A stretch of 24,250 nucleotides of DNA, taken from positions 1 through 24,250 of IMG/VR virus record IMGVR_UViG_3300043466_001378; one strand, 5' to 3'. The first letter of the stretch is position 1. Every line of letters starts with the position of its first letter. Shown in pieces: positions 11,848 to 24,239 of this stretch. The DNA comes from a virus. Below the pieces are notes generated by a model. The model was not told the DNA's origin, searched no databases, and saw nothing but the letters and a program-made list of their open reading frames with translations. The position numbers were made by a program, and so were the translations under genes.

Positions 11848-12384
11848 GTGGCAGATAAGAATTTTAGGGTAAAAAATGCCCTAGAACTTGGAACTGGAAC
11901 AATTACAGTAGGTGCGAATACTGTAACACTACCTTCATCTACAGATACATTAGTTGGAAGAACTACGTCAGATACTCTAACTAATAAAACATTTCAAAGT
12001 CCAGAAGAAATTGTTACTGTTTCAGCAACAGCCGCTACCGGAACAATTAACTTTGATGTAATTACACAATCAGTTTTATATTACACAAGTAATGCTACTG
12101 CTAACTGGACATTAAATATTAGAGGAAACTCTTCAACTACCTTAAACTCTATATTGCCTGTTGGGTCTGCAATTACTTTAACATTTTTAGTTACACAAGG
12201 TGCTACAGCATATTATCAAACAGCATTGCAAATAGATGGCAGTTCTATAACTCCAGAATGGCAAGGCGGATCAGCACCAACTGTAGGTAATCCATCAGGA
12301 ATAGATGCATATTCATTTACTATTATAAAAACAGCGTCTACACCAACATATGTTGTACTAGGCTCATTAACAGGGTTTGCATAA
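11848..12384 (+). CDS. Tail fibre-associated protein, 178 aa
   Basis: Starts at GTG 11848 after GGGGAGAGTGAACTAG. The N-terminus (ADKNFRVKNALELGTGTITV) and DTLVGRTTSDTLTNKTFQSP (about 33-52) are typical of phage fibre proteins; the rest is an all-beta domain (about 55-178) with the shape of a short tip. A similar opening occurs in fibre genes of marine and freshwater phages. Probably a shorter fibre or tip component; receptor unknown. Its stop and the next start share one base (TAATG). Confidence 0.7.
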   Translation: MADKNFRVKNALELGTGTITVGANTVTLPSSTDTLVGRTTSDTLTNKTFQSPEEIVTVSATAATGTINFDVITQSVLYYTSNATANWTLNIRGNSSTTLNSILPVGSAITLTFLVTQGATAYYQTALQIDGSSITPEWQGGSAPTVGNPSGIDAYSFTIIKTASTPTYVVLGSLTGFA

Positions 12385-13451
12385 TGCCGTTAATATCATC
12401 TTTATCTGCTGGCGCAAAAGCATTTGGTATCTATGCATTGTTAGCATTATCATCTGTTGTAGATCTATTTACTAGAAGTGATAATGCTACAAGTTTAGGC
12501 TCAGTTAAAGGACAAAATTGGAAGGTTTGGCGAGGTGTCTGGGGGATTGCTGCAAATAAGGCGTCTTCTTCTAGTTCTGCAGCGACTAACGCACTTGCTA
12601 CTCTTAGGTTTACCAAGACAGATGTGACAGTAAGTATCTCTGGCGCAGATCCAGGAACTGGAGCATCATTCTGGGTAACAGATGCAGATAACTGGTATGC
12701 ATCTGTTTATACTCAGAATCAGGTATGTCAAACATGTTCTAACTGTAATGCCTGGAATACACCTAATTGTGTTGGATGGGCAGTAGGAAATTGTGCTAAC
12801 GGAACGGTATGTTGTGGAGGATTTAATACCTCCACCTGTACTGGCAATTCTTATACCCTAGGACCGTGCATTACTTGGTCATTAGGGTCATGTATCACTT
12901 GGACTCTTGGAAACTGTACTGTATGGAATAGTGCAAATTCTGGCAACAGAGCGCCACCTTATGGATTCTGCTTCTCTCCATCTAGAAATCCATCTACATG
13001 TAACCAAAGAAATCCATCTACATGTAACCAAAGAAATCCATCTACATGTAACCAATGGAATGCCTCTAATTGTAATGCATTCTGCTGCAATGGAGCGTTT
13101 GAAAACTGGTCGCCATATTGCACATCGTTTTCATTTTCATGTAGTTCATTCTTTACTTTCTCATGCAATTGTACTACAGAGCATAGAATTTCATTAATTA
13201 GTTCTATACTAGGGTCTGTCAGTACTTTAAGTAATAATTTATTTAGCAGCGCGATTCAATCATTTAAAACAATTTTATCTGGAAATCAAGCAACTATTTC
13301 TGCATATTCAACAACAACATATAATAGTCAGATTGGGAACTCTGTTGTTACAAATATTACTTCTCCTACTAAATATACTCAGCATGGTATAATTAAGTCA
13401 ACTTCTAATTATTCACAGGGTTCTGCTATAGACGAATTTGGAGTAAGTTGA
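12384..13451 (+). CDS. Cysteine-rich tail protein with octad Cys repeats, 355 aa
   Basis: Residues 28-110 (LFTRSDNATSLG through NWKVWRGVWGIAANKA to ADNWYASVY) resemble a concanavalin/LamG-like fold common in phage and secreted proteins. At 115-263 there is an insertion with 22 Cys, many exactly eight residues apart (121, 129, 137; 144, 152; 162, 170, 178; 206, 214, 222, 230; 253, 261), often as CxxW. Three near-identical NPSTCNQR units occur at 202-225. The C-terminal part (264-355) is Ser/Thr-rich and resumes the beta pattern. There is no signal peptide. The Cys array could bind metals or form a disulphide ladder after release from the cell; function otherwise unknown. It sits among fibre genes, so an external virion location is likely. 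Confidence 0.7.
   Translation: MPLISSLSAGAKAFGIYALLALSSVVDLFTRSDNATSLGSVKGQNWKVWRGVWGIAANKASSSSSAATNALATLRFTKTDVTVSISGADPGTGASFWVTDADNWYASVYTQNQVCQTCSNCNAWNTPNCVGWAVGNCANGTVCCGGFNTSTCTGNSYTLGPCITWSLGSCITWTLGNCTVWNSANSGNRAPPYGFCFSPSRNPSTCNQRNPSTCNQRNPSTCNQWNASNCNAFCCNGAFENWSPYCTSFSFSCSSFFTFSCNCTTEHRISLISSILGSVSTLSNNLFSSAIQSFKTILSGNQATISAYSTTTYNSQIGNSVVTNITSPTKYTQHGIIKSTSNYSQGSAIDEFGVS
12986..13054 (+). repeat. 24-bp in-frame tandem repeat, about 2.9 copies
   Basis: Exact copies begin at 12986, 13010 and 13034 (the last is 21 bases). Each encodes one NPSTCNQR-type octad. The unit is a multiple of three, so copy-number change would keep the frame. Confidence 0.85.
13385..13393 (+). promoter_or_regulatory. 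Extended -10 motif inside the Cys-rich gene
   Basis: TGGTATAATTAA, identical to the motif at 11806 and 17263, lies about 60 bp before the 97-aa gene. It could drive the downstream cassette independently. It also encodes amino acids, so chance is possible. Confidence 0.35.
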
Positions 13452-13744
13452 TGAAAAAAAGAGATACATATAGATCATATTTAATTAAAAGATTACTAGG
13501 ACTAGATAATACCTACTATAAGCCAAATCCAAAATTTAGTAGAGCAGGAGAAGCCCCAACGCACCTTGCTCTCGTTATTGATGGAATTGTTGAGGATATA
13601 ATACATTGTGATGAAAGATTCGGAGACATTCTTTTAAGCAATCCTAAAATAATTGATCTAGGGAAAAACTTTAGTAATGTAAATATATTAGATACATATG
13701 ATGAAAATTCTAATACATTCTATTCAGAGAGTAAAAATGTCTGA
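13451..13744 (+). CDS. Small protein with LALVIDG domain, 97 aa
   Basis: ATG 13451 shares one base with the upstream stop (TGATG). After a basic N-terminus (1-25) the segment HLALVIDGIVEDIIHCDERFGDILLSNPKIIDLG (about 38-71) and the closing YDENSNTFY form a small beta-alpha domain that is paralogous to the product of 13964-14173. Unknown family, but proteins with this pattern are common beside phage structural genes. A structural accessory role is possible. Confidence 0.65.
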   Translation: MKKRDTYRSYLIKRLLGLDNTYYKPNPKFSRAGEAPTHLALVIDGIVEDIIHCDERFGDILLSNPKIIDLGKNFSNVNILDTYDENSNTFYSESKNV

Positions 13745-13967
13745 AAATAAAAATGTTAGACCATGGGACTTATTTAATAAAAAAATGGGTCGTGTCAATT
13801 CAGAAATATATAAAAATAGAATAAGTATATGTTCAAGTTGTCCAGAATTAATAAAAACTACATTCCAATGTAAGAAGTGTGGATGTTTTATGAAACAAAA
13901 AGTCAAACTAGCAGATGCTAGTTGTCCACTAAATAAGTGGGAAAATATAGATAAAGGAGGTGTATGA
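13737..13967 (+). CDS. Zinc-ribbon protein, 76 aa (DUF6171-like)
   Basis: Cys pattern C32xxC35, C45xxC48xC50 and C63 in the order SICSSCPEL, FQCKKCGCFMKQKVKLADASCPLNKW matches a small phage/bacterial zinc-binding family (I recall DUF6171) with the conserved CxxCGCFM and CPLxKW. Start at ATG 13737 overlaps the previous stop by eight bases (ATGTCTGA); the longer open frame upstream is not used. It sits between two paralogous small proteins. Role unknown; its position among appendage genes suggests a virion assembly or modification partner. Confidence 0.75.
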   Translation: MSENKNVRPWDLFNKKMGRVNSEIYKNRISICSSCPELIKTTFQCKKCGCFMKQKVKLADASCPLNKWENIDKGGV

Positions 13968-14173
13968 AGGTGATAGAAAAAGTATTGGCCTTTGTATTAG
14001 ATGGTAGTGTACAAAGAGTTATGAGGTTAGATGAAGAAACTGCTGCAATAATGCTTTCTCATCCAACAGTTGTTGATATTACTAACGTCCAGGTCACAGA
14101 ATCATGGAATTATGATGCTAATAAAGGATTCTATATAGAAATAGATGGCTCAGAGTTAGTAGTTCCAACATGA
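13964..14173 (+). CDS. Small protein paralogous to the 97-aa product, 69 aa
   Basis: VLAFVLDGSVQRVMRLDEETAAIMLSHPTVVDI (7-39) matches LALVIDG...CDERFGDILLSNPKIIDL of the 97-aa protein, and WNYDANKGFY (48-57) matches its YDENSNTFY end. ATGA overlap with the zinc-ribbon stop and an AGGAGGTG site just upstream define the start. Probably duplicated from the same ancestor; function unknown. Confidence 0.65.
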   Translation: MKVIEKVLAFVLDGSVQRVMRLDEETAAIMLSHPTVVDITNVQVTESWNYDANKGFYIEIDGSELVVPT

Positions 14174-14922
14174 TCAGGAGAATAAGATGGGTTCCAAATG
14201 ATGAATATGCATATAAGCATATAGATCCTCCCATTCCTGCAAAACAAGCAATGCCGCAATGGTATCGGCTTGGGGAAATGGTTATTTCTAAAAATACTGG
14301 TAAAGTAGCCAATGTTTCAGATAATGACATATCGGGGGGTCTTAAATCATGCCTGCCCTTCCTTGACGCTATGATTTCTGGCTATTTTATAACTTCATGG
14401 GAAGATTTCTATATTAAAACTACTGATAAAGTAGAAGAATTTTATTCAGTAATAAAAAATGAATATACAGATAAATATGAGAAGTATACCCCCCCTAATC
14501 ATCCAATGATAGATGAAAGGGTGGGTGATATAGGACATACAATACCAAGGCCAGAAGGACATTGTAAAAATCATATGATTTTTAGTGGACAATGGGGGGC
14601 ACGCCTACCAAAAGGCTGGAGTCTTCTTCTAACTCATCCACTTAATAGATTTGATCTCCCATTTGCAACAACATCTGGGATTATAGATTCAGATGAGTGG
14701 TGGGCAGGAGGCAACATACCATTTTTCTTTAAAGAGAACTTTGAAGGAATAATCCCCAAGGGAACCCCGTTTGCACAACTGATACCAATAAAAAGAAGTT
14801 CTTGGACTTCTTATACTAGTGTATTAAGTGTTAGTAGAAATACATATCTTGCTGATAAGGCAAGATCTGTTCCAATAGGATGGTATAAGAAGAATATTTG
14901 GACAAAAAAGAAATATGATTAG
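14170..14922 (+). CDS. DUF6065-like protein with dUTPase-fold pattern, 250 aa
   Basis: The C-terminal half reads LPKGWSLLLTHPLNR (146-160), GIIDSD (170-175) and IPKGTPFAQLIPIKR (195-209), which parallels dUTPase/dCTP deaminase motifs PKG...R, GVIDxD and KGxRIAQLI in order and spacing. The N-terminal half (DPPIPAKQAMPQWYR, CLPFLDAMISGYFI) is shared with the 245-aa paralogue at 15900. The catalytic residues of dUTPase are not evident, so I infer a beta-clip fold rather than activity. Overlaps both neighbours (ATGA upstream, ATGATTAG downstream). Role unknown; located beside glycosylation enzymes. Confidence 0.65.
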   Translation: MIRRIRWVPNDEYAYKHIDPPIPAKQAMPQWYRLGEMVISKNTGKVANVSDNDISGGLKSCLPFLDAMISGYFITSWEDFYIKTTDKVEEFYSVIKNEYTDKYEKYTPPNHPMIDERVGDIGHTIPRPEGHCKNHMIFSGQWGARLPKGWSLLLTHPLNRFDLPFATTSGIIDSDEWWAGGNIPFFFKENFEGIIPKGTPFAQLIPIKRSSWTSYTSVLSVSRNTYLADKARSVPIGWYKKNIWTKKKYD

Positions 14923-15907
14923 TTTAGATAAAAAAATATTTGTATCTTGTCCCACATTAGATGATACAGAATATCCAATAAGTATAAGCAATGCCTTTAA
15001 TTCTGCTAAAAATCCTAGTAGAATATTTTTTGGTACAGCGTATTCTACAGATTTTAAAAATAAAAAAAAATATGAAATATTAAAAAAAAGTATTAATGGG
15101 TATAAAGAAAATATTAGAATAAATTTACTAAATTATAGTAAAGATATTGGTGTCGGATACGGTAGACTTTCATCAATGAATTTATATAATAATGAAGATT
15201 ATGTTCTTCAGGTTGATGCTCATTGTTTATGGAAGCAAGACTGGGATGAAATACTTATATCTTTATATGAAGATGCTAAAAAAGAAATAAATTATGAAAA
15301 AATATTATTAACTGGATATATGCCATATTATAAATATTATGATATTAATGATAGAAAAATAGTAAATACATGGCACTTAAGATATCCATTTATGACTGGC
15401 GACACACTATTGCATTTTGGTTATCCATGGAATGTTCTTCCAGGGTGGAGAGATACAGAAATGTATAATGTATATCCTGAGATTAAAGATAAATTTTTAC
15501 CAACACCTAAAATAAGTGCAGGATTTAATTTTGGCGGACCGGAATTTGCAAAAGAGTATAATAAAATTATTCCATTCCCCTTTAGATTTTTTGAAGAAGA
15601 ACTTATAATGACAATAGAACTTCTGAGTCTAGGCTTTTGTCCAACTTATATTAATGGAGATATACCAATAGCACACTTATATTCTTCAGATATAAATAAA
15701 TTTGGAGGAGATAGATTAAAAACAAAAGAAATGTCTGATAAAGAAGCAGAAAAAGTATTAAATAGAATTATTGAATATATAAATAATAATAAGAATAAAG
15801 TAAAAATATTTGAAGAATATTCAATGATAAGAGATTTTTTTAATCCAGATCCAGATTCAAAATTTAAAGTACCTAAAAATTTTTATAAAAAGGAAACTCA
15901 TGAGTAA
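14915..15907 (+). CDS. GT60-like (Skp1 GlcNAc-transferase family, PF11397) glycosyltransferase, 330 aa
   Basis: The order of motifs matches the GlcNAc-transferase family that includes eukaryotic Skp1 Gnt1: KIFVSCPTLDDTEYPISI (7-24), GVGYGRLSSMNLYNNEDYVL (79-98), then QVDAH (99-103), the DxH donor/metal site normally seen as QIDSH, WDEILISL, AGFNFGGPEFAKE (202-214), RFFEEE (224-229), and IAHLY (252-256). This GT-A enzyme would use a UDP-sugar and, in known members, modifies hydroxyproline. The gene is noticeably more AT-rich than its neighbours, suggesting separate acquisition. It overlaps both neighbours by eight bases and is two genes upstream of a prolyl-hydroxylase-like oxygenase. Sugar and acceptor here are unknown. 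Confidence 0.8.
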   Translation: MISLDKKIFVSCPTLDDTEYPISISNAFNSAKNPSRIFFGTAYSTDFKNKKKYEILKKSINGYKENIRINLLNYSKDIGVGYGRLSSMNLYNNEDYVLQVDAHCLWKQDWDEILISLYEDAKKEINYEKILLTGYMPYYKYYDINDRKIVNTWHLRYPFMTGDTLLHFGYPWNVLPGWRDTEMYNVYPEIKDKFLPTPKISAGFNFGGPEFAKEYNKIIPFPFRFFEEELIMTIELLSLGFCPTYINGDIPIAHLYSSDINKFGGDRLKTKEMSDKEAEKVLNRIIEYINNNKNKVKIFEEYSMIRDFFNPDPDSKFKVPKNFYKKETHE

Positions 15908-16637
15908 AAATATAGAATTTATGGCAGTAGAAAATTCTGGTCAAGGGTGTGTCAAGCCTATACCTGCTACAAAAGAAATCCCAGAGTGGTATAGAAAACT
16001 TCCCGCACTACGTTTTTTAAGAAGAAATAGTACAAAACAAGACTTTACAGTTAAAAAGTGTATTCCTATATTAGATGCTTTTACTACTGGCTACTATCTA
16101 GTTACTACATATGATTCTGATTGGTATATAGATTCTGAAGGAAATTATGAGTGTAAGTGTGATGCAAAACTAGTTGAAGGTGGAAGTAAGCCAATCACAA
16201 TGCATCCATGGGAGCAAATCAGAGATATAGAACTAGGTGGAATATATGATGAATATGCATATAAGTTTAGCAATCCATATTTAATAAAAACTCCTCCTGG
16301 ATATAGTTGTATTTTTACGCATCCATTCAATCAAATTTCTCCTTTTCTAACACTTACTGGAGTAGTAGATACCGATATGCATCCATTAGCAGTACAGTTC
16401 CCATTCCTAATGTTAAAAAACTGGGAAGGTAGAATTAAGGCCGGAACTCCAATTGTGCAAATTATTCCATTCAAACGCGATGAGTGGAACCTTGACAATA
16501 AAGAGCCAACTACTAAAGATAGACAAATAAGTTCTCAGAGGCACCAGGAATTTGAATCATATAGATATGATGATTCTGGGAATCCAATAGGTGGACAGTA
16601 TAAAAAGAAATATAGAGAAAAGAAAAGATACTTATAG
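15900..16637 (+). CDS. DUF6065-like protein, paralogue of the 250-aa product, 245 aa
   Basis: PIPATKEIPEWYR (20-32), KKCIPILDAFTTGYYL (52-67), PPGYSCIFTHPFNQ (132-145), GVVDTD (154-159) and KAGTPIVQIIPFKRDEW (180-196) align with the 250-aa protein throughout. The same dUTPase-like motif order is visible. The ATGAGTAA start overlaps the GT60 stop. The C-terminal 45 residues are basic and rich in Lys, Tyr and Gly (GGQYKKKYREKKRYL). It may bind the same partner as its paralogue; function unknown. Confidence 0.65.
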   Translation: MSKNIEFMAVENSGQGCVKPIPATKEIPEWYRKLPALRFLRRNSTKQDFTVKKCIPILDAFTTGYYLVTTYDSDWYIDSEGNYECKCDAKLVEGGSKPITMHPWEQIRDIELGGIYDEYAYKFSNPYLIKTPPGYSCIFTHPFNQISPFLTLTGVVDTDMHPLAVQFPFLMLKNWEGRIKAGTPIVQIIPFKRDEWNLDNKEPTTKDRQISSQRHQEFESYRYDDSGNPIGGQYKKKYREKKRYL

Positions 16638-22655: not shown

Positions 22656-24239
22656 ATGGAAATTAAAAAGTCTTATTGGCATAGTGACGGCGATAGAATA
22701 AGTCTGTCTGTTCCGTTTTTTAAGGTTGACAAAGAGCGTAGAATCGTATCTGGATTTGCTACGTTAGATAATGTTGATCGACACAATGATATAGTTGATG
22801 CAGAAGCATCAATGAAAGCATTTGAGACTTTCCGTGGCAATCTTCGTGAAATGCACCAGCCAATTGCTGTTGGTAAAGTAACTAACTTTAGAGAAGAGCA
22901 GTTTTTCGATAAGTCAACTGGTGAAACATACCGTGGGGTATTTGTAGATACATATGTCTCTAAGGGTGCCCAAGATACCTGGGAAAAGGTTCTTGACGGC
23001 ACTCTTTCTGGTTTTTCAATCGGTGGCAACATTACAAAAGTAGATACAGTTCAGAAGAATGGTGACTCAGTTAGAGTTATTAAAGAGTATGAACTTGTAG
23101 AATTATCTCTAGTTGATAGCCCAGCAAATCAACTAGCCAACATCTTTGCAGTACAAAAAAGTGATTCTGGAAATTCAATAACTGGAATAGCAGTAGATTT
23201 AAAAATGGATACCATTTTCTGGTGCGAGAATGACCAAATTGCTGTAGCGAAAGAGTCCGACTCCTCAACATGTATAGTTTGTGATACAGAAATGACAAAT
23301 ATTGGTTGGGTAGAGTCAAATGATATTTCTAAGAGTGAAGAAATAGAAAAGGCTATAAGCAGACATATTTCTAAAGCAGAGCCTGGAACATTAAAAGAGG
23401 GGGACTTTGTTTCCTGGAATTCTTCTGGCGGTACTGCTAGAGGAAGAATAGAATATATCATGACAGAAGGAACGCTAGGTGTTCCAGACTCAGATTTCTC
23501 TATTAATGCTACCCCAGAAGATCCTGCTGTTCTTATAAGAATATATAGAGAATCTGGCAATGGGTGGGAAGAAACAGAAACTTTAGTGGGTCACAAAATG
23601 AGTACACTAAGGAAAATAGATTCATTGCCTGAGGCAACAGACAAAGTAGCAAAGCAGGCAGAAGATGAAACCAATATTGAAGGAGGTGCAGCAAATATGG
23701 AAATTGAAAAAAATGATGAAACAGAAGCCACAGAAGAAGTTATCAAGTCAGACGGTTGTGGAGAAAACTGCGAATGCAACTGCAATAAGTCACTTGAAGA
23801 TTCAGAGATTGAAAAGGCTGATGTAGTAGAAGATCTTGCTACTGAAGAAGTTGAAGAAACTGAAGAGGTAGAAGAATTAGAAAAGGCTGCTGTCTCTGAT
23901 GTTGAGGTTGAAGAACCCGACTTTGTGAAAATGTTGGACGACCTCAAAACATTCTTTGGAGACAATATTACTAAGAGCGCAGAGGAAACTAAGTCTACAG
24001 TAGATGAACTTAGCAAGACTATAGATGCTCGTATTACAGAATTGGCTGATAAGCACGATTCCCTAAGCAAAGCAGTTGAGAATATCAAAAGTGCAATCGA
24101 CACAATCGAAAAGCGCGTTGATCTGGTTGAAAATGAAACTGCTGTTAAGAAGTCCCGCGATCTTGAGGGGTCAAAGGAAGAAAAAACAATAAGAAAAGGT
24201 ATCTGGTCTGGATCTTTCCTCGGCGTCCGTGACCTATAA
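22656..24239 (+). CDS. XkdF-like prohead protease fused to TUDOR-like and scaffold regions, 527 aa
   Basis: Residues 1-168 form an S78-type (XkdF-like, Peptidase_S78_2) protease: FATLDNVDRHNDIVD (34-48), catalytic His H67 in REMHQP, LSGFSIGG (117-124) with S118 or S121 as the nucleophile, and LSLVDSPAN (150-158). Residues 185-220 carry a partial zinc ribbon (C190, C206, C209). Residues 246-321 match the Hva1_TUDOR pattern: GDFVSW, ARGRIE, PEDPAVLIRIY, LVGHKMSTLRKI. From 348 on, an acidic, Glu/Val-rich, coiled-coil-like scaffold ends with the tail SGSFLGVRDL; C368, C372, C374 and C376 form an odd Cys cluster. It would cleave scaffold and capsid during maturation. The capsid gene presumably follows beyond the window. 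Confidence 0.82.
   Translation: MEIKKSYWHSDGDRISLSVPFFKVDKERRIVSGFATLDNVDRHNDIVDAEASMKAFETFRGNLREMHQPIAVGKVTNFREEQFFDKSTGETYRGVFVDTYVSKGAQDTWEKVLDGTLSGFSIGGNITKVDTVQKNGDSVRVIKEYELVELSLVDSPANQLANIFAVQKSDSGNSITGIAVDLKMDTIFWCENDQIAVAKESDSSTCIVCDTEMTNIGWVESNDISKSEEIEKAISRHISKAEPGTLKEGDFVSWNSSGGTARGRIEYIMTEGTLGVPDSDFSINATPEDPAVLIRIYRESGNGWEETETLVGHKMSTLRKIDSLPEATDKVAKQAEDETNIEGGAANMEIEKNDETEATEEVIKSDGCGENCECNCNKSLEDSEIEKADVVEDLATEEVEETEEVEELEKAAVSDVEVEEPDFVKMLDDLKTFFGDNITKSAEETKSTVDELSKTIDARITELADKHDSLSKAVENIKSAIDTIEKRVDLVENETAVKKSRDLEGSKEEKTIRKGIWSGSFLGVRDL
23697..24239 (+). CDS. Nested in-frame scaffold protein (internal start), 180 aa
   Basis: Within the protease gene and in the same frame, AAGGAGGTG (23680-23688) is followed by eight bases and ATG 23697 (M348 of the long product). 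This is as strong as any ribosome-binding site in the window. The predicted product is the acidic, coiled-coil C-terminal region only, i.e. a free scaffold, as lambda Nu3 is made from an internal start of the protease gene C. It keeps the cleavage-prone Glu/Lys-rich tail and the Cys cluster. Independent translation is inferred from sequence alone. Confidence 0.6.
   Translation: MEIEKNDETEATEEVIKSDGCGENCECNCNKSLEDSEIEKADVVEDLATEEVEETEEVEELEKAAVSDVEVEEPDFVKMLDDLKTFFGDNITKSAEETKSTVDELSKTIDARITELADKHDSLSKAVENIKSAIDTIEKRVDLVENETAVKKSRDLEGSKEEKTIRKGIWSGSFLGVRDL

Follow-up and report, generated by a model that had tools for sequence, protein, structure and literature searches.

A family of phage proteins with a hypervariable, even-cysteine insert on a CBM66-like sandwich: probable tail-tip receptor-binding domains

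We examined a 24,250-nucleotide stretch of viral DNA (hereafter the window; positions 1 to 24,250 of IMG/VR virus record IMGVR_UViG_3300043466_001378) and found that one of its genes belongs to a previously undescribed phage family, in which a β-sandwich like that of CBM66 carries an insert at one fixed site. The gene, called the knob gene below, is an open reading frame (ORF) at 12384..13451 of the plus strand (as are all genes and motifs given here) encoding 355 residues. Its product is probably a receptor-binding domain of the tail tip, in which a stapled stalk bears a hypervariable disulphide knob. All 22 cysteines of the protein fall within residues 115-263 (12726..13172), exactly where an earlier reading made from the sequence only had placed an array of 22. 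Sequence searches with the window protein found no family in Pfam, PHROGs or PDB, and its relatives gave weak matches to Pfam and PHROGs in at most three of 29. No match was found by tblastn against 50,697 phage records, a result to which the BLAST low-complexity filter may contribute; the queries were the whole window protein and its first 113 residues, with relatives L009, L023, L187 and L209, and the E cutoff was up to 0.01 in one search and up to 1 in the others. An exact-pattern scan of genome contigs gave 0 matches. We found no earlier description in the open-access literature, and one elsewhere is possible.

The first relative (L001) came from a scan of viral contigs with the window protein, and has the same flanks around a different cysteine-rich stretch. 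A DNA pattern for FWVTDxxNW[WY] (FWVTDADNWY at residues 96-105 of the window protein) matched 105 stretches, nearly all of which encode the scaffold with a cysteine-rich insert directly after the motif. An alignment-based scan widened the family, and membership was then defined by hidden Markov models (HMMs), one for each flank, which took the place of an overly loose regular expression for the downstream strand. The N flank was found in 192 ORFs, the C flank in 187 and both in 182, giving 104 distinct members; 102 of these have an insert of 62-487 residues and two have a 10-residue loop, at a site fixed after FWVTDxxNWW. Cysteine accounts for 1562 of 15112 insert residues (10.3%), vs 2 of 7507 and 3 of 9329 in the flanks (about 0.03%). 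Truncated or frameshifted copies without one flank were left out of the counts (10 N-only and five C-only ORFs, and four N-only in the second set described below). Two such broken or frameshifted copies, L167 and L169, have their N and C flanks in different frames, with the same pattern on two contigs; L073 is another.

The cysteine count of the insert is even in every case that bears cysteine: in 68 of 68 full-length non-redundant inserts, and in 101 of 101 across the first set (a first count took only the 95 full ORFs, a later one all 101). A check on fresh data, using two other DNA patterns and unchanged HMMs, added 39 distinct members; 37 of these had an insert, and all 37 counts were even, so that the two sets together give 138 of 138, with 4 to 50 cysteines each. 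Controls behaved otherwise: eight other residues of the same inserts were even in 30-41 of 70, cysteines of the insert first halves in 35 of 69, and other ORFs of the same loci (at least 150 residues and four cysteines) were even in 80 cases and odd in 51. A tree of the flanks requires 48 or more changes in the count. Whole proteins, taken from chosen start codons, are even in 65 of 68; in the other three the odd cysteine must be sought outside the insert, all inserts being even, and L092 has it in the C flank. Between the close relatives L197 and L192 a serine and a proline face two cysteines, a case of cysteines gained or lost in twos, and counts differ likewise in L092/L032 and in L046 vs L107, L046 having a vicinal CC; even differences between even counts follow from parity and add no evidence, while the positions suggest partners. 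That 33 of the 68 non-redundant counts are not multiples of four speaks against tetrathiolate metal sites throughout, and if every cysteine is paired by an intrachain disulphide, parity across so wide a range is expected. The disulphide role raised by the earlier reading is supported by this parity. Side by side with the rule stands another type of member (L035, L099 and L200, with L013 and L043 of the same type), which has a 10-residue loop at the site and a long ORF with a cysteine-rich C-terminal region; the ORF has 45 cysteines, an odd number, so the parity rule need not cover that region.

AlphaFold2, run on the window protein with 28 relatives, gave a predicted local distance difference test (pLDDT) score mostly above 90 for residues 16-120 and 259-355, and below 50 for residues 121-258. 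The confident parts form a ConA/LamG-like sandwich on either side of the cysteine stretch, in keeping with the earlier proposal that this stretch interrupts a LamG-like region. The N-terminal part of the sandwich (12429..12743) runs into a predicted first stalk strand (residues 104-115, 12693..12728), and a second stalk strand (residues 263-275) opens the C-terminal part (residues 259-355, 13158..13448). The knob between them (residues 121-258, 12744..13157), the part that is hypervariable in relatives, has no confident model; for the insert the pLDDT is about 36. Relative L009, with a very regular five-residue repeat, has the same scaffold in its model, with stalk strands at residues 113-123 and 207-216; its repeat is without strands and its insert has a pLDDT of about 33. 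Both models were compared with solved structures by VIA-align. The closest among the matches listed was the tip of Douge gp20 (Z 16.8 and 17.4); CBM66 followed with Z 16.7 (147 residues, 2.4 Å) and 17.3 (148 residues, 2.3 Å), covering most of the scaffold, and the TM4 gp23 receptor-binding domain was next among phage proteins (Z 15.4 and 15.6). No immunoglobulin domain was among the 50 matches listed, and this listing does not exclude one. Foldseek of the whole model against PDB gave nothing with E <0.001, perhaps partly owing to the disordered insert, while at the same threshold BFVD gave six uncharacterised proteins of uncultured Caudovirales and one Arthrobacter phage minor tail protein. 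The scaffold as modelled is a CBM66/ConA-like sandwich; we claim this fold and not membership of the CBM66 or LamG family, because Pfam and PHROGs models do not recognise the sequence.

The insert of the window protein begins with CxxC (CQTC, residues 115-118, 12726..12737) and ends with CxC (CNC, residues 261-263, 13164..13172). Among 70 non-redundant inserts, CxxC comes first and CxC last in 12 and the reverse holds in 11, while none has CxC or CxxC at both ends within 22 residues; shuffles gave about one of each combination. Mixed motifs stand at both ends in five, one end only has a motif in six, and 36 have this neck at neither end. By outermost doublets in both sets, 19 are CxxC/CxC, 19 CxC/CxxC, one CxxC/CxxC (L089) and none CxC/CxC, so that 38 of 39 are complementary. 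Offsets from the scaffold are 6, 9 and -6, -4 in all 19 of the first class, to which the window protein belongs; in the second they are 7, 9 and -6, -3 in 12, 9, 11 and -8, -5 in five, and two lie further out. The offsets of the inner pair sum to 3 in 37 of 38, and a slide of two or six residues is equal on both strands. Such a register, as judged from the motif positions, is what an antiparallel hairpin shows when one strand or the other carries a bulge of one residue. On the flank tree most members of each class group apart from the other class, with at least one swap, and their counts are therefore not independent events. Together the even counts and the neck support complete intrachain disulphide pairing above a putative stapled β-hairpin stalk rather than a solenoid.

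The neck might instead be a redox switch, in which CxC and CxxC form a tetrathiolate zinc site that holds the stalk in the reducing cytoplasm and becomes disulphides after release, the rest of the cysteines being disulphide-bonded. This would match the ligand pattern described for Hsp33 (PMC3184428), four neck cysteines would leave parity intact, and a DUF6171-type small cysteine protein is often encoded nearby. We regard it as unlikely, though the strongest of the alternatives: the antiparallel register with its one-residue bulge also fits two stacked cross-strand disulphides, and 36 of the 70 inserts are without this neck.

The inserts diverge fast. In 26 independent close pairs the pooled ratio of nonsynonymous to synonymous changes per site (pN/pS) was 0.392 for inserts vs 0.196 for flanks. 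The DNA of L003 and L082 is 99% identical over 300 bases on each side of the insert and 48-72% inside it, and a weaker form of this contrast is seen in L141/L139 and L090/L100; among the close pairs there are some in which part of the upstream fibre region varies too. A reverse transcriptase (PF00078), as in a diversity-generating retroelement (DGR), was found in 0 of 36 sampled records, which may be fragments, and was rejected as the source of the diversity. Of 107 inserts from the two sets, 39 contain tandem DNA repeats, with units of 4 to 61 residues and no shared period; in the first set such repeats occur in 28 of 70 inserts vs 2 of 70 flank pairs, the best period of each of the 28 inserts being divisible by three. 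The unit holds one cysteine in 18 of the 39 repeat-bearing inserts (in L040, L074, L080 and L187 it holds two). This is a puzzle, since gains of single one-cysteine units would break parity, yet no odd state was seen.

Such drift could be that of an inert spacer, or of protease-resistant filler, that plays no part in binding and is kept soluble by its disulphides. Low-complexity make-up, the in-frame repeats of those 28 inserts, a pN/pS below 1 and the existence of members without an insert would all suit it. Perfect parity in 138 inserts and the near-constant neck geometry point to strong selection on a folded state, and the variability is centred on one loop of a glycan-binding-type fold; we consider a mere spacer improbable.

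Spacing in the window protein had suggested to the sequence-only reading a strict cysteine every eight residues, and from this a stacked solenoid held by a disulphide or metal ladder. Its successive cysteines are 3, 3, 8, 8, 6, 1, 8, 10, 8, 8, 18, 10, 8, 8, 8, 4, 1, 11, 7, 8 and 2 residues apart. Many are thus eight apart, as claimed (nine of 21), and the excess is real: nine pairs at lag 8 vs 3.0 expected, and 10 instances of C-x-x-aromatic, six of them CxxW, vs 2.9 expected (5000 shuffles, p = 0.0002 for each). 'Strict' is too strong, the longest unbroken run of eights being of four cysteines (residues 206-230). This run lies mostly on a perfect tandem repeat of 3 x 24 bp at 12984..13055 (100% match; RNPSTCNQ three times, with one cysteine per unit), to which part of the octad signal is due. 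Over the 70 non-redundant inserts cysteine spacing has a broad peak at 8 (116 cases), and 5, 9, 10, 11 and 12 are common. Repeat units of 4, 5, 6, 7, 8, 9, 10, 11, 12, 13 and more residues, up to 61, occupy the same site in different homologues, so the octad is a local feature and not a family rule. A solenoid with a cysteine ladder, for which the lag-8 enrichment and the regular repeats of some relatives could be cited, is very unlikely given this change of period; AlphaFold2 also predicted no strands in the repeat of either the window protein or L009, a failure that would not be decisive alone if the alignment is shallow. Disorder in prediction and lack of octad conservation, two of the outcomes that the earlier reading had set against itself, were both found; the third, an absence of cysteine clustering, was not, clustering being very strongly conserved.

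Threonine, serine, tyrosine, glycine, cysteine, asparagine and alanine make up the bulk of the 70 non-redundant inserts. Three residues after a cysteine, tyrosine (233 vs 129 in shuffles) and tryptophan (58 vs 14) are enriched, as are alanine at +2 and asparagine on both sides. Close cysteine pairs are depleted relative to shuffles (61 vs 136 at +1, 84 vs 133 at +2, 48 vs 132 at +4, and also at +6), and histidine is 0.3% of residues; with the 33 counts that are not multiples of four, this disfavours a general metal ladder. A metal-storing or metallothionein-like insert, to which the 10.3% cysteine content and the CxC and CxxC of the necks might point, is hardly credible in view of the same depletion and counts and of the tyrosine-rich, cysteine-free insert of L182.

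In the reading that we prefer, the sandwich would extend one β-hairpin as a stalk, stapled by four cysteines, CxxC on one strand and CxC on the other. Above the staple would sit a knob rich in cysteine, tyrosine and tryptophan, asparagine, glycine, and serine and threonine, with each cysteine disulphide-paired within the same chain, presumably by oxidation after lysis. Its sequence would change fast, as repeats expand in frame and residues or stretches are substituted and replaced, under the strict constraint that cysteines are gained and lost in twos. Displayed at the tail tip, it probably presents aromatic and polar side chains (C-x-x-[YW]) to a variable target, a glycan or a surface receptor, on an actinobacterial host.

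Several observations weigh against this. The cytoplasm in which virion proteins are made is reducing, and a thioredoxin match was found in only seven of 36 sampled records, a weak linkage. In 36 of the 70 non-redundant inserts the CxxC/CxC neck is missing from both ends; L089 carries CxxC twice, once on each side, and the register of L092 is shifted by one (sum 4). The L182 insert (196 residues of tyrosine-rich repeats at the same site) has no cysteine at all, so cysteine is not indispensable, and in a few members a loop of just 2 or 10 residues stands in place of the insert. Insert pN/pS is still below 1. The knob itself lacks a confident model in both the window protein and L009, and it is fold similarity that suggests receptor binding.

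A bolder view, which we hold tentatively and think somewhat doubtful, is of an antibody-like module: a stapled stalk on a lectin-type sandwich would carry disulphide knobs of nearly unlimited variety in sequence, size and cysteine topology, as cassettes swapped between near-identical phages, with all cysteines paired under an even-cysteine law, and the CxC/CxxC neck may be a zinc-to-disulphide switch that arms the knob on leaving the reducing cell.

In the window the knob gene sits between fibre-like genes and the portal gene, in a tail/fibre block, and the earlier proposal of an external-type tail protein is supported. In the sequence TAATG its start codon overlaps the stop codon of the gene upstream, a tail/fibre-region gene of PHROG 5906, whose function is unknown (11848..12384). 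Downstream lies a gene for a DUF6171 small cysteine protein (13698..13967), a frequent neighbour: such a pattern was found within 3.5 kb downstream in 41 of the 88 loci whose DNA extended far enough on that side, as a raw count. L009 and L080 have collagen-like fibre genes upstream of the knob gene, an arrangement rejected as a rule because its pattern was found in only 17 of 88 loci. The genes at 14170-14922 and 15900-16637 of the window look paralogous by eye; the former has relatives in haloarchaeal tailed viruses and in one cyanophage record (30-35% identity among the matches listed), and look-alikes of it adjoin the knob gene in L009 and L080. A short glutamate-rich tandem repeat (23841-23882) lies in the gene downstream of the portal gene. 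No tRNA and no Rfam match was found in the window. The portal is about 59% identical to that of Streptomyces phages such as BillNye, and the order of the genes for ThyX, glycosyltransferase, ribonucleotide reductase, endolysin and portal is as in those phages. On these grounds the window phage is likely to infect an actinobacterial host, a claim made for this phage and not for other family members.

Hypervariable phage adhesins are known; in the familiar cases, to our knowledge, it is exposed loops that vary, with no cystine framework. In the present family cysteines frame the variable element itself, and the parity rule is unbroken in 138 inserts. The family is a natural library of disulphide-rich candidate binders, all borne by one scaffold and from 62 to about 490 residues long, in which pairing may be readable from sequence, as pairs gained or lost together. 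It also raises the question of how a virion protein with up to 50 cysteines folds after synthesis in a reducing cytoplasm.

Known systems resemble parts of this arrangement. The closest solved fold, the C-terminal domain of the central fibre tip of Douge (gp20; 8ZDP/8ZDQ), is also from an actinophage tail tip and superposes at 2.6-3.2 Å over 161-169 residues, at 12-14% identity; the parts of its report available to us describe no cysteine insert, and relate that this domain bound M. smegmatis and fragments of lipoarabinomannan/arabinomannan (LAM/AM) and α-glucan (PMC13033339). CBM66 of Bacillus subtilis (4B1M, 4AZZ) shares the sandwich, but is a bacterial module of about 160 residues, hence without such an insert, and is 12-18% identical. 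Phage receptor-binding proteins diversified by DGRs, such as the tentaclins as reported in PMC10743442, are likewise hypervariable in host recognition, whereas the knob family had no reverse transcriptase in the 36 records and varies in length, repeat unit and cysteine number. The zinc switch of Hsp33, as reported, pairs one CxC with one CxxC, as do 38 of the 39 phage necks with doublets at both ends, but no sequence or fold link was found and the phage motifs lie on two antiparallel stalk strands. The closest working analogue is suggested to be the ultralong third complementarity-determining region of bovine antibody heavy chains (CDR-H3), which would work like the phage knob while being unrelated to it. 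As described, it too has a β-sandwich scaffold, a protruding β stalk and a knob with cysteines variable in number and position. Its reported make-up is also similar: bovine germline D segments are rich in cysteine, glycine, tyrosine and serine, and 84% of bovine heavy chains have an even number of cysteines in the variable region (PMC7366855), vs 138 of 138 phage inserts. The phage inserts differ in reaching 487 residues and 50 cysteines and in having a stapled neck, and their diversity is inherited between phage lineages rather than somatic; no homology is claimed.
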